Shown here piece by piece: positions 194 through 38,512 of a stretch of DNA of 64,000 nt (position 1 is its first letter; each line of letters begins with the position of its first letter). Location of the stretch: positions 1 to 64,000 of the forward strand of contig NZ_CP040793.1 in assembly GCF_021952865.1 (NCBI RefSeq), in the 5' to 3' direction. The notes beneath the pieces were generated by a model. The model had not been told where the DNA came from. It searched no databases and saw only the letters and a program-made list of their open reading frames with translations. A program made the translations under genes and the position numbers. The stretch is from Clavibacter californiensis. Its GTDB lineage: Bacteria > Actinomycetota > Actinomycetes > Actinomycetales > Microbacteriaceae.

Positions 194-244
194 CGCGGCA
201 CGACATCAGCCGATCACACGGACGACGAGGAAGAGGACAAATCG

Positions 245-2417: not shown

Positions 2418-2424
2418 CGGACAC
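2399..2424 (-). other. Weak dif-like palindrome (site D)
   Basis: The half-sites GGGCAATAT and TAACGGACA flank a central GTAATA. Read in reverse it shares roughly 14 of 23 positions with the actinobacterial dif consensus, clearly fewer than the sites near 23.5, 34.5 and 38.8 kb. It sits exactly where GC-rich transfer DNA gives way to the lower-GC sugar island and contains the stop codon of the DUF4913 gene. It may be a diverged XerCD site or a chance palindrome. Confidence 0.3.
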
Positions 2425-2671
2425 GCAGAAGACAGGACACCTAGGGACATGCCCAGCCGCCTGCGAACCCTCATCAGCACCTGCCTACTCTTCCTGGGGC
2501 CCTGGTGAACGGCGAGTTATGAGGCACGTCAGCCGGATCTACGTGGATAACCGCTGCTGGGACCCGCCTCAGTCACCTCCCGGTCGCCGAGACCTGCAGC
2601 CATCGCCAGTAGCAACCTGACCTCCTGGTCTTGGAAACGATCGCCGCGGATCGGAACGCAGTCATCCCAAA
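2418..2671. other. Non-coding junction, no convincing gene
   Basis: About 250 bases between the DUF4913 stop and the end of the epimerase gene. I see no conserved protein fragment and no clear terminator. It marks the left boundary of the lower-GC island. Confidence 0.5.
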
Positions 2672-3673
2672 CTAGATCAACCGCTCAGTCCACGAGCGCG
2701 GAGTCATCGCCCCCGGGATCTCCACTTCTCGGGCGTAATCAAACGGGCGAGGACCACTCAATGATATCCACTCGACCATCGCACGGAGACCTGACTCCAA
2801 CGACGTCTCAGTCCTATAACCCAAGAGCGCTCGCGCCTTGTCAGCGCTGCATGTCGCGACTGCCACTTCGGTAGGCCGATCAGGAAGGTAAATAGGACTC
2901 AAGTCGAACTCTAAAATACTCGCAATAAGGGAAGCGAGTTCAAAGATTGACACATCCTCCTCATCGGGGCCGACGTTAAATGTCTCGCCACTGATGCCTT
3001 CTTGAGTACCGAGCCTCTCTAAGCAATACACCACGTCCTCCACGAAGCTGAAACATCTCCGGTGCGAGCCGTCTCCATAAATAATCGGCTGTTTGCCCTG
3101 AAGCATCCGGTTGATCATAATTGCGGCAACATTGCGATATGGATCATCATATTTTTGCCGCGTACCAATGATGTTATGTGGTACAGCAATTGTATATTCC
3201 GTGTCATGCAAGGTAGCGAGGTTGGCGAGAAACTTCTCGGCAGAGACCTTGGCAATACCGTACGCATTCACGGGCTTCGGTTCCTGTAACTCGTGAAACG
3301 GAGCCTCAATTCTGCCGTAGCGAGCCATGGACGAGCAGTAGACGATGCGCCCAACACCACCAGCCACAGCGGCAGTAATTACTTCGACAGACGCCTGGGC
3401 ATTATTGCGGTATACGTACGCCGGACTGAAAACGCTCAACCCATCATACGCGGCCGCGGCACAGTGGTACACAACATCTGAAGACGCGATCATAGACTGA
3501 TACCCAGAACGATCCAGACAGTCGACCCTCTTAAAGGCCACGCCATCGGGAACATTTGCGAGCTCCCCTCCCTCTAGGTTATCGATGCCTAGGACAGTTG
3601 CACCAATCCGTGTAAAGTGCTCTGCAACGTGGCTGCCCAAGAAGCCAGCCACCCCAGTGACAAAAACTTTCAT
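2672..3673 (-). CDS. NAD-dependent sugar-nucleotide epimerase/dehydratase (extended SDR)
   Basis: 333 residues from the ATG at 3673, which has an AGGAGA ribosome site 8 bases upstream; an in-frame TTG two codons earlier is rejected. The N-terminus carries the nucleotide-binding VTGVAGFLGSHVAEHF (GxxGxxG), and the active site shows YGIAKVSAEKF (YxxxK) near residue 150. This is the GalE/RfbB-like extended SDR family, which epimerises, dehydrates or reduces nucleotide-bound sugars; the substrate cannot be told from sequence. It is divergent from an aldo/keto reductase, with only 33 bases between the starts, so the promoters must overlap coding sequence. Base composition is lower in GC than the flanking transfer genes. 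Confidence 0.85.
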   Translation of the reverse strand: MKVFVTGVAGFLGSHVAEHFTRIGATVLGIDNLEGGELANVPDGVAFKRVDCLDRSGYQSMIASSDVVYHCAAAAYDGLSVFSPAYVYRNNAQASVEVITAAVAGGVGRIVYCSSMARYGRIEAPFHELQEPKPVNAYGIAKVSAEKFLANLATLHDTEYTIAVPHNIIGTRQKYDDPYRNVAAIMINRMLQGKQPIIYGDGSHRRCFSFVEDVVYCLERLGTQEGISGETFNVGPDEEDVSIFELASLIASILEFDLSPIYLPDRPTEVAVATCSADKARALLGYRTETSLESGLRAMVEWISLSGPRPFDYAREVEIPGAMTPRSWTERLI

Positions 3674-3706
3674 TTCCAATTCTCCTTTGTTCTAGTAGTG
3701 GAAGGC

Positions 3707-4735
3707 ATGCAATTGCGATACAAGGCGTTCGGCAATACGGGTCTCATGGTCTCCGAAGTGGGAATAGGCTCGATGAACCTATTTGACGAAAAGGGTCCAG
3801 GGGGCGCTTCGGACGACGCTTCAAGGGCCATTCTCGACGAGTACGTAAGTCAGGGTGGCAACTTGATAGACACGGCTGATGTATATGGTCGCGGACACGT
3901 AGAAGGAATGCTCGGAAAACACCTCCATTCAAAACGCGACACGATTTTGCTATCAACCAAAGTGGGGCTTTCTCGCTCGCCATCCGATGTCAATGCCGGC
4001 GGGCTCTCAAGAAAAAGCATTCACAACGCACTTGCGGAATCACTGAAGAGGCTCTCTACTGACTACATCGATATACTGTGGGCGCACACACTCGACACCC
4101 TCACGCCTCGAGAGCAAGTAATCAGTGCACTAGAAGATGAACAGCGTGCTGGTAACATCCTCCACTTCGGGGTAAGCAACTGGCCAGCATGGCAAACAGC
4201 CGCTGCGCATATGCTCAGCGTAAGCTCGCGCGGACACGGCATTTCTGGTATCCAGGTAAAATACAATTTACTCGATCGTGACGTCGAAACCGAGCTTTTG
4301 CCCATGGCACACGATCTCGGACTAGCCGTGACGACCTGGGCGCCGTTAGCTGGCGGTGTTCTCAGCGGTAAATACAGCGACGAAAGCTCAGGAGGGCCTT
4401 CCCGCTTCAACGATTTACAGCGACTTCCCGACGCCCTTAGACGAACTGCCGCGATGCGTGTACGTAGCCTGGCCGCGGAAGCGCAACTGACGCCAGCCCA
4501 ATTGGCGCTGAATTGGTTGGTTAGCAAAACTTCCCCCATTGTATTCCCGATCCTCGGCGCACGAACTCATGACCAACTCACGAACAACCTGTTGCAGTTG
4601 GACGCTGAGGTCCCTAATCACGTATCAGCTGCTATTGAGCAAATAGCCGCACCAGAACCGCGTTATCCATACACTTTTCTGGACGCCCAGCGAGCGTCAG
4701 GCTCTGTTCGTGGACGACTTACCGCGATCAACTAG
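3707..4735 (+). CDS. Aldo/keto reductase
   Basis: 342 residues from the ATG at 3707, chosen because the family begins M-x-YR-x-FG-x-TGL-x-VSE; a GTG three codons earlier is possible. The catalytic set is visible: Asp and Tyr in DTADVYGRG, Lys in LLSTKVGLS and His in LWAHTLD. The C-terminal NADPH-binding region PILGARTHDQL is also present. The family reduces aldehydes and ketones, including keto-sugars in deoxysugar pathways. It is transcribed opposite to the epimerase and overlaps the 3' end of the glycosyltransferase operon by 8 bases (convergent). I infer that it acts with the neighbouring sugar genes. Confidence 0.85.
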   Translation: MQLRYKAFGNTGLMVSEVGIGSMNLFDEKGPGGASDDASRAILDEYVSQGGNLIDTADVYGRGHVEGMLGKHLHSKRDTILLSTKVGLSRSPSDVNAGGLSRKSIHNALAESLKRLSTDYIDILWAHTLDTLTPREQVISALEDEQRAGNILHFGVSNWPAWQTAAAHMLSVSSRGHGISGIQVKYNLLDRDVETELLPMAHDLGLAVTTWAPLAGGVLSGKYSDESSGGPSRFNDLQRLPDALRRTAAMRVRSLAAEAQLTPAQLALNWLVSKTSPIVFPILGARTHDQLTNNLLQLDAEVPNHVSAAIEQIAAPEPRYPYTFLDAQRASGSVRGRLTAIN

Positions 4736-5819
4736 CCGCCTGAAGATCGCGGAGTAGATCGTCAACCGCCTCGCAGACCTCACTGCTCGATACATCGCTC
4801 GTCCATGAGACCTCATGTTCGCAGCCCGGCTTTGGCCCATTCCAATAGTGCTCCGATGGTATGTTATGCCGCCCGCAAACGGGACACGACTGGTTCCATG
4901 ACACTTGGACGCGATGCCTTGCCCGAGTTTGGGGAGCGAACGTTGCGAGACCAGGAGCAGTCCAAATGCCCACTGTTGGAGCTCCCGAGGCGATTGCGAC
5001 ATGCAGAAGCCCGCCGTCGCTAGCCACTACTAGCCGAGCTTCCGACATGATAGAAGCAATTTCCGGTAACGTGATGTCTGATATGTGCGCTGCGTCGGCA
5101 CCACAAGCCCGCACTACCTCGTTACACAACTCACGTTCCCACTCCGCGCCTAACACGAGTACCGCGTAACCACGCAAACCGCAGTATTTAGCAACTTGCG
5201 CGAAATGCCCTGCTGGCCAACGTCTACGCGCTCCACCGTTGCCGGGGCAAACGACTACATAGGGCATTTTTCCAAAGCGCGCAACCGCAGTCGCCCGCTC
5301 AACGGGATCAAGCTTCAGTCTCGGTTCAAGTTCACGCCAGTCGATCCCCAGCGCCGTCATCAGCTCCAGATAGCGGCGCACCTCGTTTTGATAGAAGACA
5401 TACGACACGTTGACGTCTAAAGCCTGCGAATCAGGGGTTTTGAAACCCGCCGTATGTTTGGCATGAAGGTCGAGAACTAATGGATTCGAATACTTACCCC
5501 CGCCGTGCATCTGTAGGACCAAGTCGAACTTCTGCTCTCGCATTGAGTCACGCCATGCGAAATATGCAGAGCTCGGTTCTCGAACCAGATGTCGATTAGC
5601 GGACACCCCAGGAAAGTCGGGAACTACGACAACTGAATCTATGTCCTCTAGAAGCGACGCAAGCTGATAGTGCGCCCTGGTGCCCATCAAAGTAATATGC
5701 GCGTCTGGGTATGCCTCCCTCAACGCACGGATCGCTGGAAGAATTACAATCAAGTCACCTAGCCCGTTGGCTCGAAGTATTCCGATTCTTTTGAGGTTAA
5801 CATATGCCTTACGCAGCAC
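4728..5819 (-). CDS. Glycosyltransferase family 9 (heptosyltransferase-like)
   Basis: 363 residues from a GTG. The N-terminal IGILRANGLGDLIVILPA is the GT9 signature, and the C-terminal half has the donor-site block YVVVCPGNGGARRRWP and the SDGGLLHVA motif. GT9 enzymes transfer heptose from ADP-heptose to lipopolysaccharide in Gram-negative bacteria; in actinobacteria they occur in wall-glycan and aminoglycoside-type pathways. It is the last gene of a five-gene operon, starting 5 bases after the preceding glycosyltransferase stop. With no LPS expected in this host, the acceptor is more likely a small molecule or wall polymer (inference). Confidence 0.82.
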   Translation of the reverse strand: MLRKAYVNLKRIGILRANGLGDLIVILPAIRALREAYPDAHITLMGTRAHYQLASLLEDIDSVVVVPDFPGVSANRHLVREPSSAYFAWRDSMREQKFDLVLQMHGGGKYSNPLVLDLHAKHTAGFKTPDSQALDVNVSYVFYQNEVRRYLELMTALGIDWRELEPRLKLDPVERATAVARFGKMPYVVVCPGNGGARRRWPAGHFAQVAKYCGLRGYAVLVLGAEWERELCNEVVRACGADAAHISDITLPEIASIMSEARLVVASDGGLLHVAIASGAPTVGIWTAPGLATFAPQTRARHRVQVSWNQSCPVCGRHNIPSEHYWNGPKPGCEHEVSWTSDVSSSEVCEAVDDLLRDLQAAS

Positions 5820-5824
5820 GGCGA

Positions 5825-11559: not shown

Positions 11560-14500
11560 TCAGCGCTCCACGCCGTCGTCACCGCGCGAGATCTCTGGTG
11601 CTGCCGGCTGGTTGGTCCACGAGGTCTTGGAGCTGCTGTCGGTGGACCGCTCGTCGGGGTCGATGCCTGCAGCACTTAACATCTCGCGCTCCTCTAGTTC
11701 ACGGCTCGTGTACACAGCGTCCTCGATTTGCGCGCTACGGTCGATCGTTTCCGCCTCCGCTTTGTCTCGTCCGTAGGACGAGAGAGCCGTCGCGCCGTCC
11801 AAGATTGGGAAGCCTTCTACAGCGGCGTCGCCCTCGCGCTCCTGCTCGAGCTGAGTGCGGCGGTAGGTGGCGGTGAACGTGTCGGCGCGCTCCTGCTCCC
11901 GTGCAGCGGTCTGCTCGGCCTTCTCCTGGTCACGGCCGGCCTGGCGATGCGCCTCGCGGACGGCTTGCTCACGCTCACGCGGGGCCCTGCGCTGCGTCTC
12001 CTGCTGATCGCGGCGCGGCTCGTCTGCGGCACGCTGGATCTGCCGGGTGACCTCCGAGGTGATGGTCTGCCCGACGCGGCCCGCGTTCCGGCCGACGTGC
12101 TCGAGGGCCTCGTCGATGGGATCGCTCATGGTGGTTCCTTCCTGTCCGGTGGCGGGGGAAGCCGTGGCTACGGGGGCGGTCTCAGGGCTTGTCGCATTCG
12201 CGGGTGCTGTCTCGACGGTGGATGCCTGTGGAGTGGGCGCCGAGGCGAGCTCTGAGGCCACGGCCGTAGTCGTGGCCACGACAGCTGGAGCCTGCTGCGC
12301 GGCTACGGCCGCGATCGCCGGCACGGCGACGGGACGGCCGAGGGTGGCGCGGACGGTGTCGGCGCGGGTCGCGAAGTGCGCCGCGTACCGCTGGCGGGTG
12401 TCCAGGGCGATCGGTTCGGCGGTGAGGAGCAGGGACGCCTTGTGCATGGCCGTGAGGCGCTTCTGCAGCCGGTCGGCGATCTCGTTCCCGTGCAGCGCTG
12501 CGGGGATGGCCATCAGCTCTGCGGGGTCGACGCGGTACTTGGCGCGGAGGACGTCGACCTCCGCGGCGAGCTGGTGCCAGGCGATCATCCTCTTGGGCTG
12601 CGAGGGGACGGCGCCGAGCGCGTCGGTCCAGGCAGGGCGCTCGACGGCGAGTGTCGCGCCTCGCTCCTTGAGGCGGACGTCGATGTAGTGGTGGCGCTCC
12701 CGCAGGTGCTCGCGCCAGTCCTCCGGCACCAGGTCGTTGTCCTGCAGGCGGGCGTCCGCGATCCACGCGGCAACGCCGTCGACTTCGGGCAGGTCCATCA
12801 CGGAGCGCCTCGGGGCGTCGATCTTCTCGAGGGCGCGTTCGATGCGCCAGGACAGCACCGCCGGCACATCGTCGGCCGTGCCGAGCTCGCGCTGCTCGTA
12901 CGCGACGCGGAGGGTGTCGACGGGGCTGAACCCGTAGTCCTCGGCGTGCCGGAGCGCGGCCGCGACGGCGCCCCAGCTCTCCTGCGACTGCAGGGTGGTG
13001 GCGAGGCTGGTCCCGAGGGCGACCTCCGCGATCCGGCCGTAACGGATCTCGCCGGCGCGCTCGGCGACGTCGGCATGCTGGTCGATGAGGGTGACCAGGT
13101 CATCGACGCGGTCCTGCTCCGCGCGGATGGTCTCGTGCGCGGAGAGCATCGCGTCGGAGCGGGTGGCGATCTGCTCGAGCGCGTCGCCGACGGCGGCGCC
13201 GTCCGCGACCTCGAGGTAGAGGCGGTTGGACTGCTTGCCGCGGGTGAGTCCGGTGTAGGCGGTCTCGCGGGTCATGCTCTCATCGCCCAGGATGTGGCTG
13301 GTGTCGGCGGTGAGGCCCTGGGACCGGCTGATGGTGCGGGCGTAGCCGAGCTCGACGTGTTCGCGCACATAGCCGGCGGGGAGCGTGACGGGCGCGGCGT
13401 GGTCGCGGTGGACGACGTCGAGGGATCCGTCGGCGCCGATGCGGGTGACCTGCCAGAGGTCGCCGTTCTTGACCCGGTCGCGGCCGTTCTGGATCCGCAG
13501 CAGCGACTCGTTGCGGCGGGTGGCGACGAAGTCGCCGACGTGCGCGGAGAGGTCGTCGCGGAGCTTCACCGCGCGGGTGCCGATGATGGTGCCGGCGGCG
13601 ATGCGGTGGGCCTGCGCGCGGGCGTTGAGCTCGGTGACGGTGGCGCCGGTGGGAGCGAGCATGAGCGAGCGGAGACCGGCGTCGGTGTCGGTCTGCCAGC
13701 CGGCGAATACAGCGTCGGTCATCCGGTCGACGTCGCCCCCGACGACCCGATCGTTCGCCTGGTACCAGGCGAACGGGTCGCCGGGGCGCAGCGGGTCGCG
13801 CAGGTGCAGGGACGCCTCTGCCTCGTCGGCGTCCTGGAAGCGGTGGACGTGCTCGAGGCGCACGGACCCGACCTCGCGGTCGATCAGGCGCAGCGCGCCG
13901 CCGGCCTCGACGGCGGAGAGCTGGCGGTCGTCGCCGATGAGGCGCACGTGCGCGCCGTACTCGCGGGCGATGGTGTGCAGGGCGGCGAGGCGCTGGGTGC
14001 CGGCCATGCCGGCCTCGTCGACGACCAGGACGTCCCCGGCCCGGATCTCGTACTTCTCGGGTAGTTCCGCCTGCGCGTGGGCGGTCAGGAACCCGTGGAT
14101 GGTGGTCGCCTCGATGCCGACCGCTTCGGCGATCACGGACGCGGCAGGGGCGGAAGGGGCGAGGCCGATCATGCGGCGGCCACCTTCCTCGAGCGCGGTC
14201 GCGGCCAGGCGCAGCGCGGTCGTCTTGCCGGCGCCGGCGGGCCCGATGCCGACCACGAGCTCACGGTCCGACGTCGCAAACTCGCGCGCGAGATCCCGTT
14301 GGCCGGCGTCGAGCGGTCCGGTGTGCTGGGCGGCCGTGCGCTCGAACGTGTCCCGGCTGATGGGGGAGACGGTGCGGGTCCGGGCGGCGTCGAGGAGCTG
14401 GTCTTCGGCGTCGAGGATCCGCGTCGACGTGAACAGGGTCTTGCCCTTGTGGTCGTAGATGCTCGACCCGTCCGACCGCGTGAGCGGCGTGAACGCGCCG

Positions 14501-15987: not shown

Positions 15988-16263
15988 GCGGGGACGGTAC
16001 CTCGTTCATTGCTAATGCCTGAGGTGTGACGAATCAGGCTGTGGAGAGACGAGCGAGGGACGAGCGAGGAACGCAGCAGGATGAGGCGGTCGAGAACGTA
16101 GACGGAGCTCTGCGGAGTCGGAGTGAGCGCGATGGACGGGCGAAGACCGCCAGGCGGGCATGGAAGCGACGAGGAACGAGGAGCGACTTGCCTCGCCGGA
16201 GGGGTCGCCGACCGTCACCGCGACGGGGGGGGGCAGGGCGACGCCAGGAGCGCCGTTGGCCGC

Positions 16264-16277
16264 GCATGCATGCATGC
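16264..16277. repeat. GCATGC tandem repeat upstream of the small transfer-region gene
   Basis: Three overlapping GCATGC palindromes begin at 16264, 16268 and 16272, about 60 bases before the start of the next gene. The same overlapping array occurs in the parA promoter region at 59375-59390, suggesting a shared DNA-binding protein. Confidence 0.5.
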
Positions 16278-16338
16278 ACTCACCGCCGGTGCGGCCGTAC
16301 CACTCGACGAGCCGCGAGCGAGGAGAGAGGAACGCACG

Positions 16339-16680
16339 ATGGCCGAGGTCAAGAAGGCCGGCAGGCAGTCCGCCGCACGACGGGCGGCACGAGAACGCGC
16401 CACGGAGCGAGCAGCCGAGTTCCGTCGTCGCGAGAACGCGCTCGAGGAGCTCGCCGTCGACTACTTCGTCGCCTTAGACGCGATCAAGGATGTCGAGACC
16501 GACCTGGCGCGGCAGATCACGGATGCGCGAGCTCGAGCCGACGCGGCTGTCGTCAAGATGCGCCGTGAGGCGGCTGACATCACGAACCGCATGCTCGCCG
16601 AGGGAGTCACGAGAGGAGAGGTCGCCAAGCGGCTGGGGATCGCCGTGCGAGACGTGGCCAAGGGCTCGGTTGACGGATAG
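16339..16680 (+). CDS. Small basic coiled-coil protein divergent from the relaxase
   Basis: 113 residues from the ATG at 16339, preceded by GGAGAGAGGAA; longer in-frame starts are rejected because they run through the repeat-bearing leader. The N-terminal 30 residues are very basic, and the middle (about 30-85) is a predicted helical coiled coil. The end (EGVTRGEVAKRLGIAVRDV) looks like a helix-turn-helix. I do not recognise a named family. Being divergent from the relaxase, it could be a regulator or oriT accessory protein. Confidence 0.65.
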   Translation: MAEVKKAGRQSAARRAARERATERAAEFRRRENALEELAVDYFVALDAIKDVETDLARQITDARARADAAVVKMRREAADITNRMLAEGVTRGEVAKRLGIAVRDVAKGSVDG

Positions 16681-16773
16681 CGATGCTACGCGAGTCGCCT
16701 CTTCGGCCCCTTCACGACGTAAAACGGGCGGACCCCGCATCACTTGGCGTAGTGGGCGTTAGGTTCCGGGCGG

Positions 16774-17262
16774 TCACCAAAGTGGTGGCTGATCCGGGCC
16801 GATGCCGTTGAGGGCATCCCGGATCAGGTCAGCATCCCATCCGTGATCACGGACCGCGTCGCGCAAGGCGCGGGATCGCCCGACGCGCTCGGCGCGCGGG
16901 AGCCCGCGGTATCGCGCTACTGTCCAGCGGTTCACGTGGCGACCCTTCCTCGAGCGGTCGAGCATGTTGTCTCGGTGCGTACCTGGCGTGACGTGGGACC
17001 GCAACGGATCCGGATCGACGTGAACGCACAGCGGCACATCGCACGCGTGCAGGAGCAGCGTCGACGAGGGCAGCACCGTGCCGATCATCTCCTGATACGC
17101 GTACTGCGGCGGCCTCACGGCCCGCTGGCCGTTGCCGCTCACGGAGATCCAAAAGCGTCCGTACCCGTCATCCGAGACAGCGCCCGTCCAGAGCCAGCAG
17201 TCGTCGACGCCCGGACCCTTCACGACGTACCGCCAAAACCGCTCGTGCTCGGAGGTCTTCAT
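16774..17262 (-). CDS. HNH-type homing-endonuclease-like protein
   Basis: 162 residues from the ATG at 17262. The start CWLWTGAVSDDGYGRF is the usual opening of phage and plasmid HNH proteins. The core LLLHACDVPLCVHVDP, ending TPGTHRDNMLDRSRKGR, has the Cys and His residues and the THRDNM-x-D helix of this group. Such proteins nick or cut DNA and often spread as selfish elements. The gene stands alone, convergent with the small coiled-coil gene. Confidence 0.75.
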   Translation of the reverse strand: MKTSEHERFWRYVVKGPGVDDCWLWTGAVSDDGYGRFWISVSGNGQRAVRPPQYAYQEMIGTVLPSSTLLLHACDVPLCVHVDPDPLRSHVTPGTHRDNMLDRSRKGRHVNRWTVARYRGLPRAERVGRSRALRDAVRDHGWDADLIRDALNGIGPDQPPLW

Positions 17263-17481: not shown

Positions 17482-19239
17482 ATGAAGGCTCCGGATTCGA
17501 TCTCACCTGATGCGACCCCGCCGTCTAGGAACATCGCCGGTGCCGTCGCCGTCGTCATGAGCTGGATCGACGAACAATCGTCCGCACCGGTACCGCCGAC
17601 ATGGGTTCCTGGCGCGTCGGCTCGCGAACGTCAGGCTCTCGCGTCCCTGGGTGGTGCCGTTCATTCGTACTGGGCTTCAACCGGACGCACGCCCGAGTGG
17701 ATCAGCGCTTGGGACGACATCCAGGAGTGGCTGACTGACGGTCCGAAGGCCCCCGCCTCGGTTACCTCGGCGATCGCCTTGCTTGCCGCATCGGGTCCCG
17801 ATGCGATCGCACGCCTCTACGACTCGGCCGTGCATGCGGCCGCTCGTCGCCACCTCGGCACCTTCTTCACACCATCAGCCGAGGCTCGATGGATGGTCAA
17901 ACGCTGGACCTCCACCTTCGGATCGCCGGACGCCGTCGTGGATGTCGGAGCAGGGGTGGGGGTCTTCACGGTCGCAGCTCATGAGGCATGGCCCTCAGCC
18001 GAATTGATCCCCATCGACATCAACCCCATAACCCTGGGGCTTGTCGCCCTGCTCGCTTCCCCGAGCCTCAATGAGCGTGTGCGCCCTGTCCAAGCCGACT
18101 TCGCCGCCTGGTCGCATGAGAGCTTCGGAGACGTCGAGGGGAGGAGGCTCATCCTCGGGAATCCTCCGTACACCCGCCTTCAGCTGATCCCACCCGCTCA
18201 ACGCGCACTGCTTCTCGCGGCTGCCGGCGGCCTGTGCACCGCCCGCGCTTCACTGTCAGCCCTCATGCTCGGGACCTCGTTGACGATGATCGGAGAGCAC
18301 GACGGCGTATGCCTGCTGCTACCCGCCCAATGGTTGGAGTCGGACTACGCCGAGGGCCTCCGTGAGTGGCTGTGGGCACGAACGGACCGTCGAGTTGAGT
18401 TGCACCTCTTCGAGTCGCAGCTGTTCGCCGATGCCCAGATCGATGCGGTGAGTCTTCTCGTCGGCCCTGCGCAGCCCACACGCCAACCTCTGGTCCTCGG
18501 CATGGCGACCTCGACGAAGAGAGCCGTCGCGTCCCGCGTGCGGGAAGTCGATCGCGCCGATCAGGCGGAACCGCCAGCCAACTGGAGGCACCTGTTCGCT
18601 CGAGACACCAGCGAGCCCGCGCGAGCAGGCCAACCTCTCTCGGTACTCGCAACGATTCGACGAGGGACCGCCACGGGGGCGAACGCCTTCTTCACGCTCT
18701 CGCCGGAGGAGGTGGAGCGGTGGGACCTGCCTGCCTCGTCCCTTCGACACTTCATCCAGCGAACGCGAGATCACACCCTGTCCGTCACGACTCAGGACCT
18801 CGAGGCTCTCGGCCCGCGCAGCAAGCGGTTCATGCTGGTGATCGACAGGTCAGCCATGTTGGACGCGCATCTCCGCCACTATCTCCGCCACGGCATCCGC
18901 AACGGCGTCCATGCCAGGGTGCTCACGCGGACACGTGGCGTCTGGTTCGCGCTCGGGTCAGAGGCCTCCGCGCCTGATGTGATCGTCTCCGCGTCTGCAC
19001 GACAAGGGTTCACCCTGTTGGAGAACCAGGCGGGAGCGGTCATCGCGAACAACTTGTACGGCCTTCGATGGCACGCCACGACGCCCCTGGAGGTCCGCGA
19101 TGCGGTGCTGCGCTGGCTCCGCTCACCTGACGGTCAGGTCGCGCTCCTAGCGGTCGCGCGTCATCAAGCTGATGGCTTGCGCAAGCTCGAGGTGAGCGCA
19201 TTGGCGCGCCTGACGATCCCGGACAGCGTCACCACCTAG
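17482..19239 (+). CDS. N6-adenine DNA methyltransferase (class I, NPPY)
   Basis: 585 residues. The GTFFTPSAEARWMV segment (about 126-140) is typical of Type I and Eco57I-like methylases. The SAM-binding motif I is VVDVGAGVGVFTVA near residue 151, and the catalytic motif IV is LGNPPYTRLQL near residue 226. The C-terminal 300 residues would form target recognition. It should methylate adenine in host DNA. It is the first gene of an operon with a GHKL kinase, a receiver-like protein and a PIN-like nuclease. There is no conventional restriction endonuclease gene, so the partners may supply that role. A 63-base gap with a GCC/GGC hairpin precedes the next gene. Confidence 0.88.
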   Translation: MKAPDSISPDATPPSRNIAGAVAVVMSWIDEQSSAPVPPTWVPGASARERQALASLGGAVHSYWASTGRTPEWISAWDDIQEWLTDGPKAPASVTSAIALLAASGPDAIARLYDSAVHAAARRHLGTFFTPSAEARWMVKRWTSTFGSPDAVVDVGAGVGVFTVAAHEAWPSAELIPIDINPITLGLVALLASPSLNERVRPVQADFAAWSHESFGDVEGRRLILGNPPYTRLQLIPPAQRALLLAAAGGLCTARASLSALMLGTSLTMIGEHDGVCLLLPAQWLESDYAEGLREWLWARTDRRVELHLFESQLFADAQIDAVSLLVGPAQPTRQPLVLGMATSTKRAVASRVREVDRADQAEPPANWRHLFARDTSEPARAGQPLSVLATIRRGTATGANAFFTLSPEEVERWDLPASSLRHFIQRTRDHTLSVTTQDLEALGPRSKRFMLVIDRSAMLDAHLRHYLRHGIRNGVHARVLTRTRGVWFALGSEASAPDVIVSASARQGFTLLENQAGAVIANNLYGLRWHATTPLEVRDAVLRWLRSPDGQVALLAVARHQADGLRKLEVSALARLTIPDSVTT

Positions 19240-19302
19240 TTCCCGCGCCGTCGCCTGAGCACACGGCGACGCTCGCCGGCTCTGGTCTCCTAAGCTGAAG
19301 CC

Positions 19303-21717
19303 GTGCCGACTGATGAAGGACGCGACGACAAGGTGCTCGGCTTCGCGGTCGACACCCACCTGCTCCGCGAGCTCGGCGAACTGCTGGTAGGGCGCGACAG
19401 CACGGCGATCCTGGAGCTGGTCAAGAACGGGTACGACGCCGATGCCTCACGCGTGCGCATCACCGCCACCGATCTCGCGGACCCGGCGGCCGCCGAACTT
19501 ATCGTCGACGACGACGGCAACGGCATGACGCTGCAACGGTTCCGTGAGGCGTTTCTCCGGATCGCAGGCCGTTCAAAGGAACAAGGGCCGCGCGAGTCAC
19601 CACGGAAGAGCCGCGCGTACACCGGACAGAAGGGCATCGGCCGGCTGGCGAGCCAGAAGCTGGCTCACGAGCTGGAGGTGTTCAGCGTGCCGGACCAACG
19701 GGTTAAGGACAACGAGGGCCCCGGGGTCAGATCCCGCATCGACTGGGCGGTCATCGATCAGCAAGCCGACCTCAACAACCTGGAACGCGGGCTCGAGGTC
19801 CAGCCCGTCTTCACGGCGCCGGTGAACCGACAGCCTGGCACGAAGCTCACACTCCGACGGCTGAAGCGAGAGTGGACAGACTCGGAGATCTCCACGTTCG
19901 TCAACGAACTGCAGTCTGCGCAACCGCCCAAGTACCTGACCGCCGGCACACCAGAAGCCCTCGGTCTCAGCGCGGAGCCGCTGTTCGGAGAGCCGCTTGT
20001 GCGGACGTCGAGCGACGCCGACCGGACTTTCGATATCGAGTTCGAGGGTGATCTTAAGACCGGTGATGATCTCTGGTCTGTCGCCGCCGAGAAGTTCGAC
20101 TGGTGCATAGAGATCGATGTCCGCGACAGTCGTGTCCGCTATCGCGTGTCGCCCACCGTGAGACTGGAGCGATCAAACCCCGAGGTCCACGTCTACAACT
20201 TCGAGGCGGACGCACCTGCAGATCTGGCGTTCCAGGCGAGGATATTCTTTATGCCGGCTGCCACGGCGCGGAGAGGCCCCCTACAGGGCTTCACCCGGGC
20301 GACGAGCGGAGTCCGTATTTACCAAGAGGGGTTCCGGGTCCTCCCATACGGCGAGCTGGGAAACGATTGGCTCGCCCTCGACCGCGAGTATCGGACCGGG
20401 CAGCGCTTCTACACGATCCATCTGGACGACTCGGTCAGCGACCCCATCGAGCAGGACAAGACAGAGGCGCTGTCCGGGGCGAGCAACGCCAACTACTACG
20501 GCGCGGTCTTCCTGACCACCGCAGGCGCTCCGCATCTCGAGAGCATCGTCAATCGCGAGGGCTTTGTACCGTCCCACACCTTCGACGCGATCACCCGAAT
20601 TGTCACGAACGGCGTCAGGCTCAGCGTGCGCGTTCGGCGAGCGGTGAGCGTCGAGGCCAAGAGACGCGCAGCCGATGGCGTCCCGCGCCAGGATGCTGAG
20701 GACAGCGAGGGCGCACCGGACGACCAGCAGGCCACGAGGCAGAAGGAGGACGGCCCGTCGTCGACGGTGGCGACCGGGGTCGCCTCGACACGACCGCCGG
20801 CCCAAGATCGCGCTGGCTACGAGCTGCTGTCTCCCCACCCCGTCGCAGAGCCGGCGAGGGACCGAATCGAGAACGCCGTCACGGCCGCCGCGGAGATCCG
20901 CAGACGCGGGGACGCCGTCCCGGAACCGGCTGCCATTGCGGCTGTGGCGGACGGCCTCGACGCAGCTACGGCGGCACTCGATGAACTGGAGTCCATCCAG
21001 TCAGAACTTCGGACTCTCGCCAGCGTCGGCCTGCAGCTCGGCGCCTTCGTCCACGACATCAACGGCATGCTCTCATCCACTCGCTCAACGCGAGCCTTGC
21101 TCAGCAGGCTCGCGGAGTCGTTTACCGGGGAGTCGAGATCCGACCTGCGGATCATCCTGAAGTCCGTCGAAGAGCTCGCTCACACACTGGCACGGCAGAG
21201 TTCCTACCTCACCGACGTCCTTAGCAGCGACCCCCGTCGGCGTCGATCTCGCTTGTATGTCGCCGAGCGGGTTGCTGCGGTCCTGGCTTTCCTCGAACAG
21301 CGGGTGAACGACCGCGGGATCACGGTGGACGTGCGAGTGGACGAGACGCTTCGCACCCCTCCCATGTTCCCAGCGGAGCTGACCGCTCTCCTGACCAACA
21401 TCCTGACCAACGCCGTCAAGAACGCGGAAGACAAAGGTCACATCCTCGTGGACGCACGCCGCGATGGATCCGGCAACCCTGTCATCGTCGTCGCCAACGA
21501 CGGAGTGGCCGTGGACCTAGATGACGCGGAGAAGTGGTTCCGCCCGTTCGAGACGACCACGACCGTCGTCGACGAGATGCTGGGCCAGGGCCTAGGCCTT
21601 GGCCTGCCGATCGTCCGTGCCATTGCCGACGACTACGACAGCGACGTCCGATTCATCAGGCCGCCCTCCGATTTCGCGACGGCCATCCAAGTGTGGCTCA
21701 AAGAGAAAGAACGGTGA
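19303..21717 (+). CDS. Double-GHKL ATPase / histidine kinase
   Basis: 804 residues from a GTG. The N-terminal ATPase module is HSP90/MutL/MORC-like: N-box ELVKNGYDADA near residue 40, DDDGNGM near 70, and QKGIGRLASQKL near 110, followed by an S5-like region. The C-terminal module is a classic histidine kinase: a phospho-acceptor helix with FVHDINGML near 583, then N-box NILTNAVKNAED near 700, WFRPFET, and GQGLGLGLPIVR near 765. No membrane segment is seen, so it is cytosolic. MORC-type GHKL proteins occur in restriction-modification neighbourhoods. Here the kinase half could signal to the receiver-like protein encoded next. Confidence 0.82.
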   Translation: MPTDEGRDDKVLGFAVDTHLLRELGELLVGRDSTAILELVKNGYDADASRVRITATDLADPAAAELIVDDDGNGMTLQRFREAFLRIAGRSKEQGPRESPRKSRAYTGQKGIGRLASQKLAHELEVFSVPDQRVKDNEGPGVRSRIDWAVIDQQADLNNLERGLEVQPVFTAPVNRQPGTKLTLRRLKREWTDSEISTFVNELQSAQPPKYLTAGTPEALGLSAEPLFGEPLVRTSSDADRTFDIEFEGDLKTGDDLWSVAAEKFDWCIEIDVRDSRVRYRVSPTVRLERSNPEVHVYNFEADAPADLAFQARIFFMPAATARRGPLQGFTRATSGVRIYQEGFRVLPYGELGNDWLALDREYRTGQRFYTIHLDDSVSDPIEQDKTEALSGASNANYYGAVFLTTAGAPHLESIVNREGFVPSHTFDAITRIVTNGVRLSVRVRRAVSVEAKRRAADGVPRQDAEDSEGAPDDQQATRQKEDGPSSTVATGVASTRPPAQDRAGYELLSPHPVAEPARDRIENAVTAAAEIRRRGDAVPEPAAIAAVADGLDAATAALDELESIQSELRTLASVGLQLGAFVHDINGMLSSTRSTRALLSRLAESFTGESRSDLRIILKSVEELAHTLARQSSYLTDVLSSDPRRRRSRLYVAERVAAVLAFLEQRVNDRGITVDVRVDETLRTPPMFPAELTALLTNILTNAVKNAEDKGHILVDARRDGSGNPVIVVANDGVAVDLDDAEKWFRPFETTTTVVDEMLGQGLGLGLPIVRAIADDYDSDVRFIRPPSDFATAIQVWLKEKER

Positions 21718-21719
21718 CG

Positions 21720-22844
21720 ATGTCAGCGCCCAAGATCCTCATCGTCGATGACCAAGACCAGGGAACATTCGCCCGCGACCTGACGCTGGGCGGGACCGAC
21801 GCGACGCACGTACGCCCAAGCGAGCTGACGGCCACCATGCTCCACGACGCATCGTTAGTCATCATCGACGAGTTCCTCGAGGACTGGCCTGAGCGGGACG
21901 CGATGAGAGACAGCGCCGCTCTCTACGTCCGCGATGGGGTCGCCCTCTCCGCGCTGTTACGAGCCGAGCTCGAGGAACGCGGACCCGGCGTGGGACAGAG
22001 CACACCGTCACGAACCGCGATCGTCCTTCGAACCGGGCACCTCGGCGAGTTGGCAGGAGGACTGCCGCGTCACATCTGGTCGGTCGCAGTAGCAGGGCGG
22101 TACGACCTCGAGTGGGTCAGTCAGAAGGGGAACGACGAACGGACCGAGTGGTTCGCGGCAATTGCCCACGCCGCAGCCTCCTTGCCGTCGGAGTGGAATC
22201 CTCTCGAGAACGCCCCGCAGCGCGCCTGGCTCGGTCTCGGGGATCACCCGTGGAGCGATCGTGCGCTCGCACAGGTCGAGCAGTGCCGGCCGCCGTGGTC
22301 GACCTTGTCGGCCACGTCGTCGGGGCGGGTGTGGCTCGCGTGGTTCCTGCAGCGCATCGTGCCCTTCCCCACCTTCCTCCTCGACGACAAGCGCGCGGCC
22401 GCTCAACTCGGCTTGACCGCTCATGGACTCGAGCAGGCTCTCGACGGACCGTTGTCTTCCGGTTTGGAGGCAACCCGGTACACCGGCCAACTCAGCGACT
22501 TCGACGGACGACGCTGGTGGCGAGCAGGCATAGCCGCTCTGCGCGAGGCGCTCCTCGAGGAGACGGGTACGAGAGGCCTCATAAGCGTCGCGGCGGCCCT
22601 CTCCGCTCGTCATGGCTCCCCGTTGGAAGAGCTCGCGATGAAGGCACCGGTCTTCACGATCGATTCAACATACAAGACGGCGGCCCGCCCGATCGAGGCC
22701 GTGGATGCAGTCCGTCTCCAACCAGATGAATGGCCGGTGTACGCCGACGATCCTTGGCTCGCGGTCGAAGATGTCGACGACGATGATCTCAGCCGCTTGA
22801 TCGTCATCGACGATCGGGATGTCGTGAGCGAAGATGCCGAGTAA
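21720..22844 (+). CDS. Receiver-like protein partner of the GHKL kinase
   Basis: 374 residues from the ATG at 21720, 2 bases after the kinase stop; a GTG at 21714 is possible. The first 60 residues look like a response-regulator receiver: KILIVDDQ gives the acidic pair Asp10-Asp11, and LVIIDEFL gives a candidate phospho-acceptor Asp50. The switch Thr and Lys are less clear (TAIVLRTGHLGEL), and the spacing is unusual. The C-terminal 230 residues match nothing I know and carry no obvious DNA-binding helix-turn-helix. It overlaps the PIN-like gene by 11 bases. Confidence 0.65.
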   Translation: MSAPKILIVDDQDQGTFARDLTLGGTDATHVRPSELTATMLHDASLVIIDEFLEDWPERDAMRDSAALYVRDGVALSALLRAELEERGPGVGQSTPSRTAIVLRTGHLGELAGGLPRHIWSVAVAGRYDLEWVSQKGNDERTEWFAAIAHAAASLPSEWNPLENAPQRAWLGLGDHPWSDRALAQVEQCRPPWSTLSATSSGRVWLAWFLQRIVPFPTFLLDDKRAAAQLGLTAHGLEQALDGPLSSGLEATRYTGQLSDFDGRRWWRAGIAALREALLEETGTRGLISVAAALSARHGSPLEELAMKAPVFTIDSTYKTAARPIEAVDAVRLQPDEWPVYADDPWLAVEDVDDDDLSRLIVIDDRDVVSEDAE

Positions 22845-23448
22845 GCCACGACTGGGCGGACACGTCATGGATACGGGTCCGCTGTTCTGCCTAGGTGCGT
22901 CGACACTCATTGCCGAGCTGTATGACAGCCACTACAGGGACGATGCCGTAGTCGTCGCTGCCGTCAAGCACGAGGTGCAGCGGAATGCGGAAAGGCGCGT
23001 GCCGCCGGGTGACCCCGCACGCAAAGGGTTCGTGACGCAGGCCGCCAAGGCGAGTCAACGCCGCTATGCATTGCTACTCGCTCGAGCCGTCCCCCGGCCG
23101 GAGCCAACTCCCCAGGCGTTAACCGACATAGAAGCGCACCTTCTCCAGTTGGCGCTCAATAAGAGCAGGAACGGGCGGGTGCATCCCGACGCCAACCGGG
23201 GGGAAGCCGAGTCCCTATACGAGGCAGAGTTCCATGGAACGACGTTGATCGCCAACGAAGATGACGCAGTCAGAGTGGCCAAGGCGCGGAGGAACGCACC
23301 TGTGGAGAACTTCGTCGACGTGGTACGGCGACTTCGGCACGAACGTCACACGGTGAGCCCCCAGCAATTGGTCAACGAGTTAACCAGGTTAACGAGGCAG
23401 GGCATCGACATAGGCGACACGGTGACAGGGGTCACCGACCTCGTCTAG
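22834..23448 (+). CDS. PIN-like nuclease
   Basis: 204 residues. The acidic residues of a PIN fold occur in order and with sensible spacing: Asp13 in VMDTGPL, Glu47 in KHEVQ, Glu124 in NRGEAESL, and Asp143-Asp144 in ANEDDAVRVAK. PIN domains are metal-dependent RNases or DNases, as in VapC toxins. There is no adjacent antitoxin; instead it is translationally coupled to the receiver-like gene by an 11-base overlap. I infer that it is the effector of the four-gene operon, possibly held in check until the kinase-receiver pair is triggered. Confidence 0.68.
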   Translation: MPSKPRLGGHVMDTGPLFCLGASTLIAELYDSHYRDDAVVVAAVKHEVQRNAERRVPPGDPARKGFVTQAAKASQRRYALLLARAVPRPEPTPQALTDIEAHLLQLALNKSRNGRVHPDANRGEAESLYEAEFHGTTLIANEDDAVRVAKARRNAPVENFVDVVRRLRHERHTVSPQQLVNELTRLTRQGIDIGDTVTGVTDLV

Positions 23449-34601: not shown

Positions 34602-35729
34602 TTAACGATCCCTCGCTGATTCCACGGCCTCGCCCATGATCTTGTCGAGGTCGACCTGAACGCGCAGTCTCGCGATCGGACCACCCCAGATATTGTGAAC
34701 ATGCGCCCACTGCCCTGCAATCAAACTTGGTGAAACCTTGAGGCGCTGCGCCAGCGATATGACGTCACGTGGCGACGAGATACCTAGCAGTTCGGATTGA
34801 TAGCCAGCTGGTATCAAGACCTCCTGAGCGTACCTATTTGCTGCTGTCTCGTGCATGTCGTCGTCATCATTAACGCGACCCTCGTCGATAAATGTACTCC
34901 TCTTGGGATGCATCACGATGTGCGCTATCTCATGCAGAATGGTAAACCACAAGCCGTCTAGTGTCTTATATCGACTGGTAACTGCGATCATTGGCGTTCC
35001 GTTTATTCTTCGTGAAACACCGCTGATGCGGGTACCGGGCACTTCGGGAACAAACACTAATACTACCCCGGCATCGAGCAAAGCCGCTTGAGCGTCCAGA
35101 AAGGCTACTCGCGCATCTTTTACTGTAAGTCGAGGCAAGGACCGCGCAACCTTATCGAGACCCTTCGCGTCATACTCTTTTACGCGTGACACGTAAGGCT
35201 GTGCTTGTATCTCCGCCAGGCGAAGCCAAAGCGCCGTGAGGTTCGCGTCGACAGGGTGCACCTGGCTCCGCTTGTAGGAGGCTTGCGGCACCAGCCAAGT
35301 GTCTTCATATGCCTTAGGCGAGGCCACTTGAAAGAACGCAAGCAGCTTTGCCACTAGGGCCGAGCCGGTGTCTTCTGCGCTAATGACGCAACGCTGTATC
35401 AGGAGGTGGCGTGGGAAAGCGGCCGCCCATGACACAAAGTCGGCCGCCGCGCTGCGACGTTCAGCTCGCGCTTGCTCAGCTTGGTAGGCCGCTTCCAGAC
35501 GGAGCCATGTGTCGGCAGGCGTTCCCAGGACCTGTTCCAATGTGACAGCGACGTCAGGCGAGACTGACGCGGCGCCCTTTACAACCAAGTTGATGTGCTT
35601 GGTGCTCAAGCCGGTCCGCAATGCAAGCTGCGCTTGCGTGAGTAGACGTGCGTCGAGTTCACGCTGAAGGAGCCGACCCGGGTGGGGGGCGAAGTCGAAG
35701 TTGGGCTCTCTGACGGTGTATTTGGTCAT
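34602..35729 (-). CDS. XRE-HTH plus ImmA/IrrE metallopeptidase
   Basis: 375 residues from the ATG at 35729. The N-terminal HTH_XRE lies at about residues 15-75 (LTQAQLALRTGLSTKHINLVVKG). A helical linker follows, and the C-terminal COG2856 peptidase has the zinc motif HEIAHIVMH near residue 268 and the third ligand region ETAANRYAQEVLIP. Such proteins repress and cleave a partner, as ImmA does with ImmR, or act in HigA-like systems. It follows the upstream small gene by 9 bases. GC is somewhat lower than in the flanks. It lies just inside dif-like site B. Confidence 0.85.
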   Translation of the reverse strand: MTKYTVREPNFDFAPHPGRLLQRELDARLLTQAQLALRTGLSTKHINLVVKGAASVSPDVAVTLEQVLGTPADTWLRLEAAYQAEQARAERRSAAADFVSWAAAFPRHLLIQRCVISAEDTGSALVAKLLAFFQVASPKAYEDTWLVPQASYKRSQVHPVDANLTALWLRLAEIQAQPYVSRVKEYDAKGLDKVARSLPRLTVKDARVAFLDAQAALLDAGVVLVFVPEVPGTRISGVSRRINGTPMIAVTSRYKTLDGLWFTILHEIAHIVMHPKRSTFIDEGRVNDDDDMHETAANRYAQEVLIPAGYQSELLGISSPRDVISLAQRLKVSPSLIAGQWAHVHNIWGGPIARLRVQVDLDKIMGEAVESARDR

Positions 35730-35738
35730 GATTCTCAA

Positions 35739-36166: not shown

Positions 36167-36220
36167 GCTACTTCCTTCCACTCGGGGAGGAGGGGCGCCA
36201 CGCCAGTGAAGGAGGGACCC

Positions 36221-36658
36221 ATGGTCCCCGCACTCCCCACCCCCCTGACCATCGACATCGACGGCAAGGGCCTTCGTACTTCGGACTACGACCAGGACGC
36301 CGCTTCTCTCATGCGCCTCGCCGGGCGCGATCCTAAGATCTTCGACCTGTTCCTCGTGACGGAGCACGGGATTGAGGAGCCCATTCGAGACATCCAGATC
36401 GTCAACCTCACGGACGGCATGCGGTTCGTGACCAGGATCAATCTCCGGTTCACCATCGACGGTCAGCCCTTCAGCACCTACGACGATGACCAGACTGCCA
36501 GCAGCCTTCTCCTTCTCGCAGGCGTCGCACCCGCTCAGTACGACCTCGCGCGCGTCCGACCCAACGGCCAGACGGAGTCGTTCCGCGACGAAGAGATCGT
36601 CAAGCTGCAGAACGGCGACGAGTTCGTCACAGCCAAGCGGGTCGGTGGAGTCGCGTGA
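36221..36658 (+). CDS. Multiubiquitin-type tandem ubiquitin-like protein
   Basis: 145 residues from the ATG at 36221, which has AAGGAGGG correctly spaced; the earlier GTG contains that site and is rejected. Two homologous beta-grasp repeats are visible: LTIDIDGKGLRTSDYDQDAA (about 8-75) and LRFTIDGQPFSTYDDDQTAS (about 77-140). The end reads RVGGVA, a Gly-Gly followed by two residues, so processing by the adjacent JAB peptidase would be needed to expose the conjugating glycine. It overlaps the E2-like gene by 4 bases (GTGA). It matches the bacterial 'multiubiquitin' family of E1/E2/JAB operons. Confidence 0.85.
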   Translation: MVPALPTPLTIDIDGKGLRTSDYDQDAASLMRLAGRDPKIFDLFLVTEHGIEEPIRDIQIVNLTDGMRFVTRINLRFTIDGQPFSTYDDDQTASSLLLLAGVAPAQYDLARVRPNGQTESFRDEEIVKLQNGDEFVTAKRVGGVA

Positions 36659-37032
36659 GTGACACGTCCGGCCTCTCCCCGGCCGCTCAGCAGTTCGTCG
36701 ACGACATGACAGCTGCTGGCGCTGCCGCCTGGGTCGACGGGACACAAGTCCTCTACAAGGTTCAGGCCACAGACGGGCAGCTCGCTCCAGAGATCATCAT
36801 CACGGGGGTTGGGCTGGCGGACGTGCAAAGCTGGCCCGCAATCCCGCCTCACTGGATCCACCTACCCGAGACGCTGACCTTTCCGCAGACAAATGAAGAA
36901 GCCACCGAGTGTCCTGGATGGCAGCGACACTCGCGGGACTACGGAAACCCGGATCCAACGGTACCGCCGGCCCTGTCATGGCTCCGCCACGTCCGAGGTT
37001 GCCTGACCATCGCCATCCGTCGGGAGGTCTGA
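36655..37032 (+). CDS. Prokaryotic E2-like protein (family E)
   Basis: 125 residues from a GTG overlapping the previous stop. The block LPETLTFPQTN, then CPGWQRHSRDYG and SWLRHVRGCL matches the Prok-E2 family E pattern, with conserved GW-x-x-HSR and W-x-x-HVR. Cys86 and Cys116 are the two cysteine candidates for carrying the ubiquitin-like protein. It should accept the activated modifier from the E1 domain encoded next and pass it to a target. One base separates its stop from the E1 start. Confidence 0.8.
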   Translation: MSDTSGLSPAAQQFVDDMTAAGAAAWVDGTQVLYKVQATDGQLAPEIIITGVGLADVQSWPAIPPHWIHLPETLTFPQTNEEATECPGWQRHSRDYGNPDPTVPPALSWLRHVRGCLTIAIRREV

Positions 37033-37033
37033 C

Positions 37034-38512
37034 ATGCGTTACTCCGTAGCCATGTCGGGCGATGTCGAGACCACCATGAGAGACCACCTGATCCGTGACG
37101 ACGGCCAGGAGGACGTGCTCATCGCCACATACGTCCTCTCGACCGGCGACAGGCGAATCACCGCACTTATCACGTCCGTGATTTTCCCGGAAGACGACGA
37201 GCGACTCGTCCACGGCAACGCCTCCTTCACCAGCCGGTACGTTCTTCGTGCGTCGACACAGGCGCGTGCGCAGGGTCGCGGCATCGTCCTCCTGCACTCT
37301 CATCCGCTAGGTAGGGGTTGGCAGGAGCTCAGCGACATGGACTCGCACACGGAGTCTGAGTACAAGCGTGTCGCACTCAGCATCACCACGAAGCCGCTCG
37401 TCGGGATGACTCTGGGCGGCGCCAACACGGCCTGGTCAGCTCGCTTCTGGTTTGACTCCAGCAAGCCCACCTGGGCGGAGTCCGTTCGCTCCGTCTCCAA
37501 CAAGCTTACGGTCACGTGGAACGACCGGCTTCGCCCGATCCCCAAGGTGACCGATTCCCAGAAGAGGACAGTCTCCTCGTGGGGGACGACAACTCAAGCT
37601 TCGATTGCTCGGCTCCGTGTGCTGGTTGTGGGTGGAGGAAGTGTCGGCCTCGACGTTGCTCAGCGTCTCGCCGCGACGGGTCTCGCAACGGTCGGGATCA
37701 TGGACTACGACGCTGTCGAGACCGTGAACCTCGATCGCATGATTGGTGCTACGAGATCGGACGCGGCCCTCGGCCGCTCGAAGGTAGCCGTGGCATCCCG
37801 ACTGATGCGCTCAGCCGCCACCGCCAAGACGTTCGACGTCGTCGAACACGAAGTCAGCATCACAGACCCTGTCGGTGTTTCCGCGGCGCTGGACTACGAC
37901 GTGATCTTCTCGTGCGTCGACGGCCCCTGGGCTCGTGCCGTGCTGAACGCCCTGGCTTACGCCGACCTCATTCCCGTCATTGATGGTGGCATCGCTCTTG
38001 ACGCACTGCCAGACGGACGCATGCGCAACGGCATCTGGCGCGCACACACCCTCGTGCCGGGCGCCCCGTGCATGGCGTGCCTCGGGCAGCTCGTTCTGAG
38101 TGACGTATCCCTCGACAAGGATGGTCTCCTCGAGAACCCGGAGTACATCTCAGGAACCCAGCGTGAAGCCCCATCGCATCAAAACGTGGCGGCGCTTTCG
38201 GCAAGCGTCAGCGCCGCGGTACTGGCTCAGTTCGTCAGCCTCACCGCCCACCCGGGTGGGCGCGGGAGCCCTGCTCCTCTTCGCTACATGCTGTCAACGC
38301 ACGATCTGGAACATTCACGGGCGGCCTGCGGCCCCTACTGTGCTTTCACCAGCGCCACCGCCGCAGGAGACGGGCGCACCCCGATCGCCGAACCTCGGGA
38401 TGCGTGGCGCACGATCGTCCGCAAGCGTGCCCACACGAAGAAGCCGCCCCTCCTTCGCGTTCTTGATGCCCTTGAAGGTCGCCTGCACGCCGCAATCGAT
38501 CGCATCACATAG
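37034..38512 (+). CDS. JAB-E1 fusion: deubiquitinase-like plus ThiF-type activating enzyme
   Basis: 492 residues. The N-terminal JAB/MPN metalloprotease has LLHSHPLGRGWQELSDMD at about 85-103 (H-x-H and S-x-x-D zinc ligands). The E1/ThiF domain starts near 195 with VLVVGGGSVGLDVAQRL, then YDAVETVNLDR, and a CMAC/CGPYC pair of zinc cysteines (about 345 and 435). It should trim the Gly-Gly-Val-Ala tail, adenylate the modifier and load the E2. The three genes form a complete minimal conjugation cassette without an obvious E3. Related operons have been linked to anti-phage defence. Confidence 0.88.
   Translation: MRYSVAMSGDVETTMRDHLIRDDGQEDVLIATYVLSTGDRRITALITSVIFPEDDERLVHGNASFTSRYVLRASTQARAQGRGIVLLHSHPLGRGWQELSDMDSHTESEYKRVALSITTKPLVGMTLGGANTAWSARFWFDSSKPTWAESVRSVSNKLTVTWNDRLRPIPKVTDSQKRTVSSWGTTTQASIARLRVLVVGGGSVGLDVAQRLAATGLATVGIMDYDAVETVNLDRMIGATRSDAALGRSKVAVASRLMRSAATAKTFDVVEHEVSITDPVGVSAALDYDVIFSCVDGPWARAVLNALAYADLIPVIDGGIALDALPDGRMRNGIWRAHTLVPGAPCMACLGQLVLSDVSLDKDGLLENPEYISGTQREAPSHQNVAALSASVSAAVLAQFVSLTAHPGGRGSPAPLRYMLSTHDLEHSRAACGPYCAFTSATAAGDGRTPIAEPRDAWRTIVRKRAHTKKPPLLRVLDALEGRLHAAIDRIT

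Follow-up and report, generated by a model that had tools for sequence, protein, structure and literature searches.

Anti-phage defence by signalling from a histidine kinase to a receiver protein and on towards an effector is found in the Detocs system, and the operon analysed here has a similar plan. To our knowledge Detocs has neither a methylase nor a paraMORC domain and uses another sensor, which sets it apart from this operon. The available text of Bellieny-Rabelo 2021 (PMC8011034) describes a soluble kinase with HATPase_c_3 and HATPase_c domains encoded beside a receiver-like gene (the HEF_HK/Response_reg_2 pair), with a kinase/receiver linkage of 91.6% in 644 regions. The pair lies near restriction-modification (R-M) genes, conspicuously those of C5 methylases; a paraMORC origin was proposed for it and it was suggested to control R-M. 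Iyer 2008 (PMC2292703) defined paraMORC families 1-5 in R-M operons and linked paraMORCs with DNA looping of the MutL type as well as with Vsr/mismatch repair; the word "receiver" is absent from its text. Within the limited literature searched, part of it accessible as excerpts, we found no published description of the four-gene set reported below, and the accessible part of a BREX survey of 2026 held no system like it. A system with HATPase and REC domains predicted by DefensePredictor (PMC13092281, Fig. 6F) could overlap with this operon, as far as its available description goes, while the GHKL protein VcSduA in the accessible part of PMC12137116 is a different one.

The window, a stretch of 64,000 nucleotides of Clavibacter californiensis DNA, carries four co-directional ORFs on its forward strand at positions 17482-23448. 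Gene 1 (17482..19239) codes for an N6-type DNA methylase of 585 aa, gene 2 (19303..21717) for a double-GHKL protein of 804 aa, gene 3 (21720..22844) for a response-regulator-like protein of 374 aa and gene 4 (22834..23448) for a PIN-like putative nuclease of 204 aa, of the DUF3368 type. The first three genes are separated by gaps of 63 and 2 bases and the PIN gene, placed downstream, overlaps the receiver gene by 11 bases. The initial annotation had described a methylase, a double-GHKL kinase, a receiver and a PIN protein with spacings of 63, 2 and −11 bases; sequence and profile matches bear out the composition and the ORF coordinates agree with the spacing.

By its motifs, the product of gene 1 is a sequence-specific DNA methylase of the N6 type: it is Eco57I-like, with a motif I DVGAGVG and NPPY at residues 227-230. 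It matches the PADLOC MTase_II model (2.8e-27) and Pfam Eco57I (2.5e-5, slightly below the curated cut-off). Its carboxy-terminal half carries a G..TG.N.FF motif that we take to be typical of TaqI-type recognition domains. Identity to the methylases of relatives is 37% (locus L003), 36% (L008) and 21% (L004). The PADLOC (2023) models matched, among the four genes, only the methylase and the amino-terminal ATPase of gene 2. No PADLOC endonuclease model matched any of the four products over its length, the REase_II matches being confined to parts of the amino-terminal ATPase. A plain type II R-M system was set aside, as the methylase is present by sequence and no endonuclease is found among the four genes.

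The 804-aa protein has a paraMORC/HgiDII-like GHKL ATPase domain at residues 34-133 (Pfam HATPase_c_3, 9e-18) and a histidine-kinase ATPase domain at residues 692-801 (HATPase_c, 1.3e-18). A phospho-acceptor-type histidine, His584, lies within the sequence FVHDI. In the alignment of kinases the phospho-His column and the N and G1 box columns are conserved in 21/21 rows and the G2 columns in 20/21, the remaining row (L025) being truncated by a contig end; the phospho-His together with the N, G1 and G2 boxes is the sequence signature of a histidine kinase. The amino-terminal part (residues 14-196) matches the NCBIfam BbrUII/HgiDII model NF050001 at 1e-23, with a score of 83.7 that is far below the cut-off of 550, and it also resembles the amino-termini of PADLOC REase_II proteins (6e-11). 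The GHKL domain of BbrUII/HgiDII enzymes is thus related to that of the window protein, whose remainder is a histidine kinase instead. As in paraMORC families 1-5, in the available account of these families, an amino-terminal GHKL ATPase, here with intact motifs, is encoded by a DNA methylase gene and has varying partners, which in those families are nucleases or TIR proteins. It differs from them in its carboxy-terminal half, a histidine kinase that is paired with a receiver on another protein, and no helicase is found among the four genes.

The response-regulator-like protein has a receiver domain (residues ~1-155) followed by a mainly helical carboxy-terminal domain. The receiver is predicted to adopt a (beta-alpha)5 fold and has the Asp pair (D10, D11), the phospho-acceptor D50, T105 and K136 that characterise response regulators. 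D10, D11, D50 and K136 are present in 17/17 aligned rows and Thr or Ser is found at position 105 in all of them. The two residues assigned to a phosphorelay from the sequence of the window, the His of FVHDI and Asp50, are therefore invariant in the relatives examined. Pfam gave no meaningful match for the receiver and PIN proteins of the window, Foldseek alone matched the models of the two to no structure with an E-value of 0.001 or below, and none of the PIN, receiver and fourth-gene profiles had a significant match among PDB sequences. No fold match was obtained for the carboxy-terminal domain of the receiver protein, VIA-align rows mostly spanning residues 1-161; this output domain could bind DNA.

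The HEF_HK/Response_reg_2 pair resembles the window operon, in its available description, by the combination of HATPase_c_3, HATPase_c and a core His in one protein, by the adjacent receiver and by the methylases nearby. The Pfam models tell the two apart. HEF_HK (PF19191) gave no match at E 0.1 for the window kinase or for those of L012, L029, L069 and L092. Response_reg_2 (PF19192) did not match the window receiver and matched one of 17 receiver relatives, at E 0.46; the one PF19192 member compared with the window receiver family scored 0.9% in hhalign. At G222, a genuine Response_reg_2 locus, we find a 979-aa GHKL ORF and a 367-aa ORF containing FFSGCGG, presumably the motif I of a C5 methylase; its receiver protein is unrelated to that of the window (hhalign). 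The adjacent methylase of the window is N6-type (NPPY, Eco57I/MTase_II-like) whereas those near the published pair are conspicuously C5-type, and ORFs with C5-type patterns occur near L023 and L027, which belong to the close clade defined below, and near L092. A PIN partner, or one of the ~245-residue family described below, is not mentioned for the published pair in the accessible text, where unnamed neighbour groups (OG_20, OG_16 and others) could include one. Membership in the HEF_HK/Response_reg_2 family was rejected for the window operon, which by sequence is placed beside this family, yet outside it. The initial annotation, which could match the operon to no named system, had missed this published paraMORC-linked near relative, although the operon does fail its two Pfam models. 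New relative to the initial annotation are the conservation across phyla, the invariance of the catalytic residues, the exchange of the output gene and the placement near the published family.

A kinase profile built from four sequences identified at least 332 relatives in genome contigs. The best 80 were examined and include a close clade (L012-L027) at 35-41% identity and a distant set at 21-31%. Counting the window, L003, L008 and L004, the close clade comprises 20 loci, 18 of them complete; L018 and L025 are cut by a contig end. The receiver gene lies next to the kinase gene in 19 of the 20, the exception being L025, whose contig ends inside the kinase. Kinase, receiver and fourth gene are consecutive in all 18 complete loci, and neighbours overlap or are no more than 20 bases apart: relative to the kinase stop, the receiver gene has a start codon at −8 to +14 bases, and relative to the receiver stop, the fourth gene has one at −47 to +20 bases, other starts being possible in some loci. 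A methylase-profile match (≥25 bits) is found alongside in 17/18 complete loci (18/20 overall), two of the matches being weak (L022, 37 bits; L023, 27 bits, from a long reverse ORF overlapping the kinase gene). The two loci without a match, L025 and L027, have an ORF of 472-473 aa just upstream with NPPY-type and motif-I-type patterns, and in L023 it is a downstream ORF that bears the C5-type pattern. The position of the methylase gene varies, with some copies downstream or on the opposite strand. Named phyla represented in the close clade are Actinomycetota, Pseudomonadota, Verrucomicrobiota, Acidobacteriota, Planctomycetota, Gemmatimonadota, Chloroflexota and Nitrospirota. A chance cluster was rejected because the layout recurs across phyla, and the conservation of the four families as neighbours, on which the initial annotation had staked its reading, holds.

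Among the best 80 loci, a receiver-profile match is adjacent in 59, the ~245-residue family in 53, PIN in 3 and a methylase-profile match in 46, with receiver, fourth gene and methylase-profile match occurring together in only 42; the 21 loci without a receiver-profile match include some that lie at a contig end or have diverged too far for the profiles. Part of the same loci went into the receiver and fourth-gene profiles, so that their counts lean in favour of the association. The methylase profile is independent, having been built from four loci outside the 80, and its 46 matches in the operon zone (690 kb) compare with none in 755 kb of flank. Evolutionary distances of the kinase correlate with those of the receiver (rho 0.52, 19 loci), the methylase (rho 0.56, 17 loci) and the ~245-residue family (rho 0.73, 12 loci), each beyond all 1000 permutations, and with those of PIN (rho 0.69, 6 loci), a value reached by 28 of 1000 permutations. 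The correlation suggests that kinase and methylase have for the most part moved together, evidence against a free exchange of methylases in the close clade. The four genes are a real and conserved module, which is likely to be a conflict system of the R-M kind driven by a phosphorelay.

Kinase plus receiver is also the usual plan of gene regulation. The receiver could be a transcription factor that tunes the methylase or other genes, with PIN as a regulatory RNase; the carboxy-terminal domain without fold match leaves room for such a function, and the accessible text of Bellieny-Rabelo 2021 (PMC8011034) suggests that the related pair controls R-M genes. The sensor position is occupied in the window operon by a paraMORC/HgiDII-type ATPase, however, and the fourth gene is tightly coupled to the receiver gene in 18/18 loci (overlap or gap ≤20 bases). 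The methylase gene has no constant place, being found downstream or on the opposite strand in some loci. We regard two-component regulation of the methylase as rather improbable.

The fourth gene of the window codes for a putative PIN-like nuclease. The protein remotely matches DUF3368 proteins and its acidic residues D13, E47, E124, E126 and E142 align with those of relatives: D13, E47 and E124 are identical and positions 126 and 142 acidic in 7/7 rows. The best alignments of its low-confidence model (mean pLDDT 51.8) are with PIN-type structures, VapC rows among them; two PF20698 loci examined gave no support for PIN. PIN occupies the fourth slot in 6 of the 18 complete close-clade loci (the window, one locus of its family, one of its class, and loci of Micromonospora, Nocardioides and Streptomyces), and L003 carries two tandem PIN genes. 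The make-up of this group, together with the G+C content of the window, points to an actinobacterial host. In the other 12 the slot holds an unrelated family of ~245 residues that has no detectable relationship to PIN (hhalign, 0.35%), and a Pfam scan of 30 of its members gave no meaningful match (three families at E 0.029 or worse). The receivers of the two sets of loci are nevertheless homologous (hhalign 99.5%, E 5e-23). PIN was accordingly dropped as a constant component of the system, and in this respect the initial annotation is not supported. A kinase tree with 31 rows sets the PIN loci apart on one side of a branch (support 79/84, recovered in 83% of 200 bootstrap trees), whereas the other close-clade rows group together (support 97/92), this group including L018 and L025, which are cut before the fourth gene, and the viral-contig locus L092. 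The presence of two unrelated families in the same slot indicates that the output module was swapped; since the ~245-residue family also occurs in the distant set, a single replacement of it by PIN is the simplest reading. Such an exchange is as expected for swappable effector modules. As the ~245-residue family has no known fold, it may also be a regulator, and PIN could take its place without being the effector.

The overlap of the PIN gene with its upstream neighbour recalls VapBC, in which a PIN gene lies just downstream of its presumed partner and overlaps it. In a toxin-antitoxin-like module the receiver would neutralise a PIN toxin in the manner of VapBC antitoxins, phosphorylation by the kinase upon infection or plasmid loss would free it, and the methylase would maintain the element. 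The 11-base overlap, the VapC rows among the best matches of the low-confidence PIN model, the tandem PIN genes of L003 and a relaxase on the contig fit such a module. Its antitoxin would be a 374-residue receiver protein in an operon with a kinase and a methylase, not a short DNA-binding protein, and its toxin is replaced by another family in 12/18 loci. We judge this explanation unlikely; it overlaps the one we prefer, from which it departs chiefly in what the receiver does.

The window covers the first 64 kb of its contig, which measures 78,006 bases and has a TrwC relaxase/helicase; this makes a plasmid or an integrative element likely. The receiver was detected in 2/99, 2/396 and 2/299 genomes, the window's own included each time, and the kinase in 3/394 genomes at E 1e-20, one of them of the distant L009 type. 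In tblastn searches the receiver was found in 1 of 72,556 plasmid records, PIN in none of the plasmid records, and the kinase gave two partial matches in phages. A single-sequence scan of genome contigs with the receiver (77 stretches) detected no relative. Upstream in the sister locus L003 are genes for Shedu (SduA_C, 1.4e-25), PglZ and BrxL; as PglZ and BrxL were noted beside this locus, BREX was considered for the window operon and set aside. Among 94 flank proteins of 13 loci, 183 PADLOC families matched at 1e-10 or better; the 25 families listed have one matching protein each and include PglZ, BrxL, JetA, type I specificity, MTase_II and AbiEi. The MTase_II match is perhaps the ORF beside the L027 operon, which is part of the flank set. 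Flank proteins scanned singly had PADLOC matches in 3 of 10 cases. These counts come without a control set and an enrichment of the flanks in defence genes is only suggestive.

Sparse presence in relatives, together with the replacement of the fourth gene, is more in keeping with a conflict system than with a housekeeping role in repair. A function in DNA repair or chromosome maintenance analogous to that of MutL/MORC looping ATPases and to Vsr repair, with the methylase providing a strand or self mark, would agree with the ties to MutL-type looping and Vsr/mismatch repair drawn in the accessible text of Iyer 2008 (PMC2292703); we consider it very improbable.

The explanation we favour, with modest confidence, is an R-M-like defence module in which a His-Asp phosphorelay takes the place of the restriction endonuclease. 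The mechanism put forward in the initial annotation is plausible in this respect. Host DNA would be marked at the methylase's own site. The double-GHKL protein would be a soluble sensor kinase whose paraMORC-type ATPase clamps or scans DNA, and unmarked, invading DNA would lead its carboxy-terminal kinase domain to autophosphorylate His584. The receiver protein would then take over the phosphate at Asp50, and its helical carboxy-terminal domain may hold or activate the partner encoded beside it, in the window branch the putative PIN nuclease. The fuller version, in which a MORC-type ATPase/histidine kinase reads a methylation-based distinction of self from non-self and signals through the phosphorelay to exchangeable effectors (PIN or the ~245-residue family), is put forward tentatively.

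R-M systems are usually viewed as enzyme pairs. If the recognition of DNA were linked to the killing enzyme by a kinase/receiver relay, the response could be amplified, reversed and directed to one of several effectors, and the recurrence of paraMORC kinases next to DNA methylases would be explained. In most relatives the fourth gene is without a meaningful Pfam match and offers an obvious starting point for discovery. If the proposed mechanism is true, the operon would represent an immune system that is widespread and as yet unnamed, and would serve as a model for the sensing of DNA modification by MORC ATPases.

A distant version of the four-gene operon, with genes in the same order as in the window, is found at L009 (5979-10663). 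Here an SPPY-type methylase gene precedes that of the double-GHKL kinase, and the third gene codes for a DD-containing protein of 402 aa; no fourth gene, neither PIN nor of the ~245-aa family, was found at this locus. Upstream of the kinase in the distant set of kinase relatives (21-31% identity), genes coding for proteins of ~290, ~1075 and ~370 aa recur at L038, L046, L047, L053, L059, L063 and L066. The uncultured Cenarchaeum contig at L091 carries five consecutive same-strand ORFs matching the GHKL profile.

In the close clade, the PIN-carrying sister operon of L003 is immediately preceded by co-directional genes for Shedu SduA_C, PglZ and BrxL (33-5822). A tandem second PIN gene is also present there (11735-12367), whose product is 38% identical to the PIN protein of the window. 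At L004, on Rhizobium plasmid pTH2c, the kinase, receiver and ~245-aa genes are followed by a GIY-YIG nuclease gene (16109-17038).

Elsewhere in the window, the minus strand encodes a 2287-aa protein with matches to PA14 and RHS-repeat (49562-56425) and a protein with HTH and IrrE/M78 peptidase domain matches (34602-35738), which we take to be an ImmA-like regulator of mobile elements. On the plus strand, at 36206-38512, a gene for a multi-ubiquitin protein (PF14452, 3e-11) is followed by an ORF of 125 aa and by a gene whose product is ThiF/E1-like (2e-25). These consecutive genes form an operon of the bacterial ubiquitin-like type, which may be a further conflict system.
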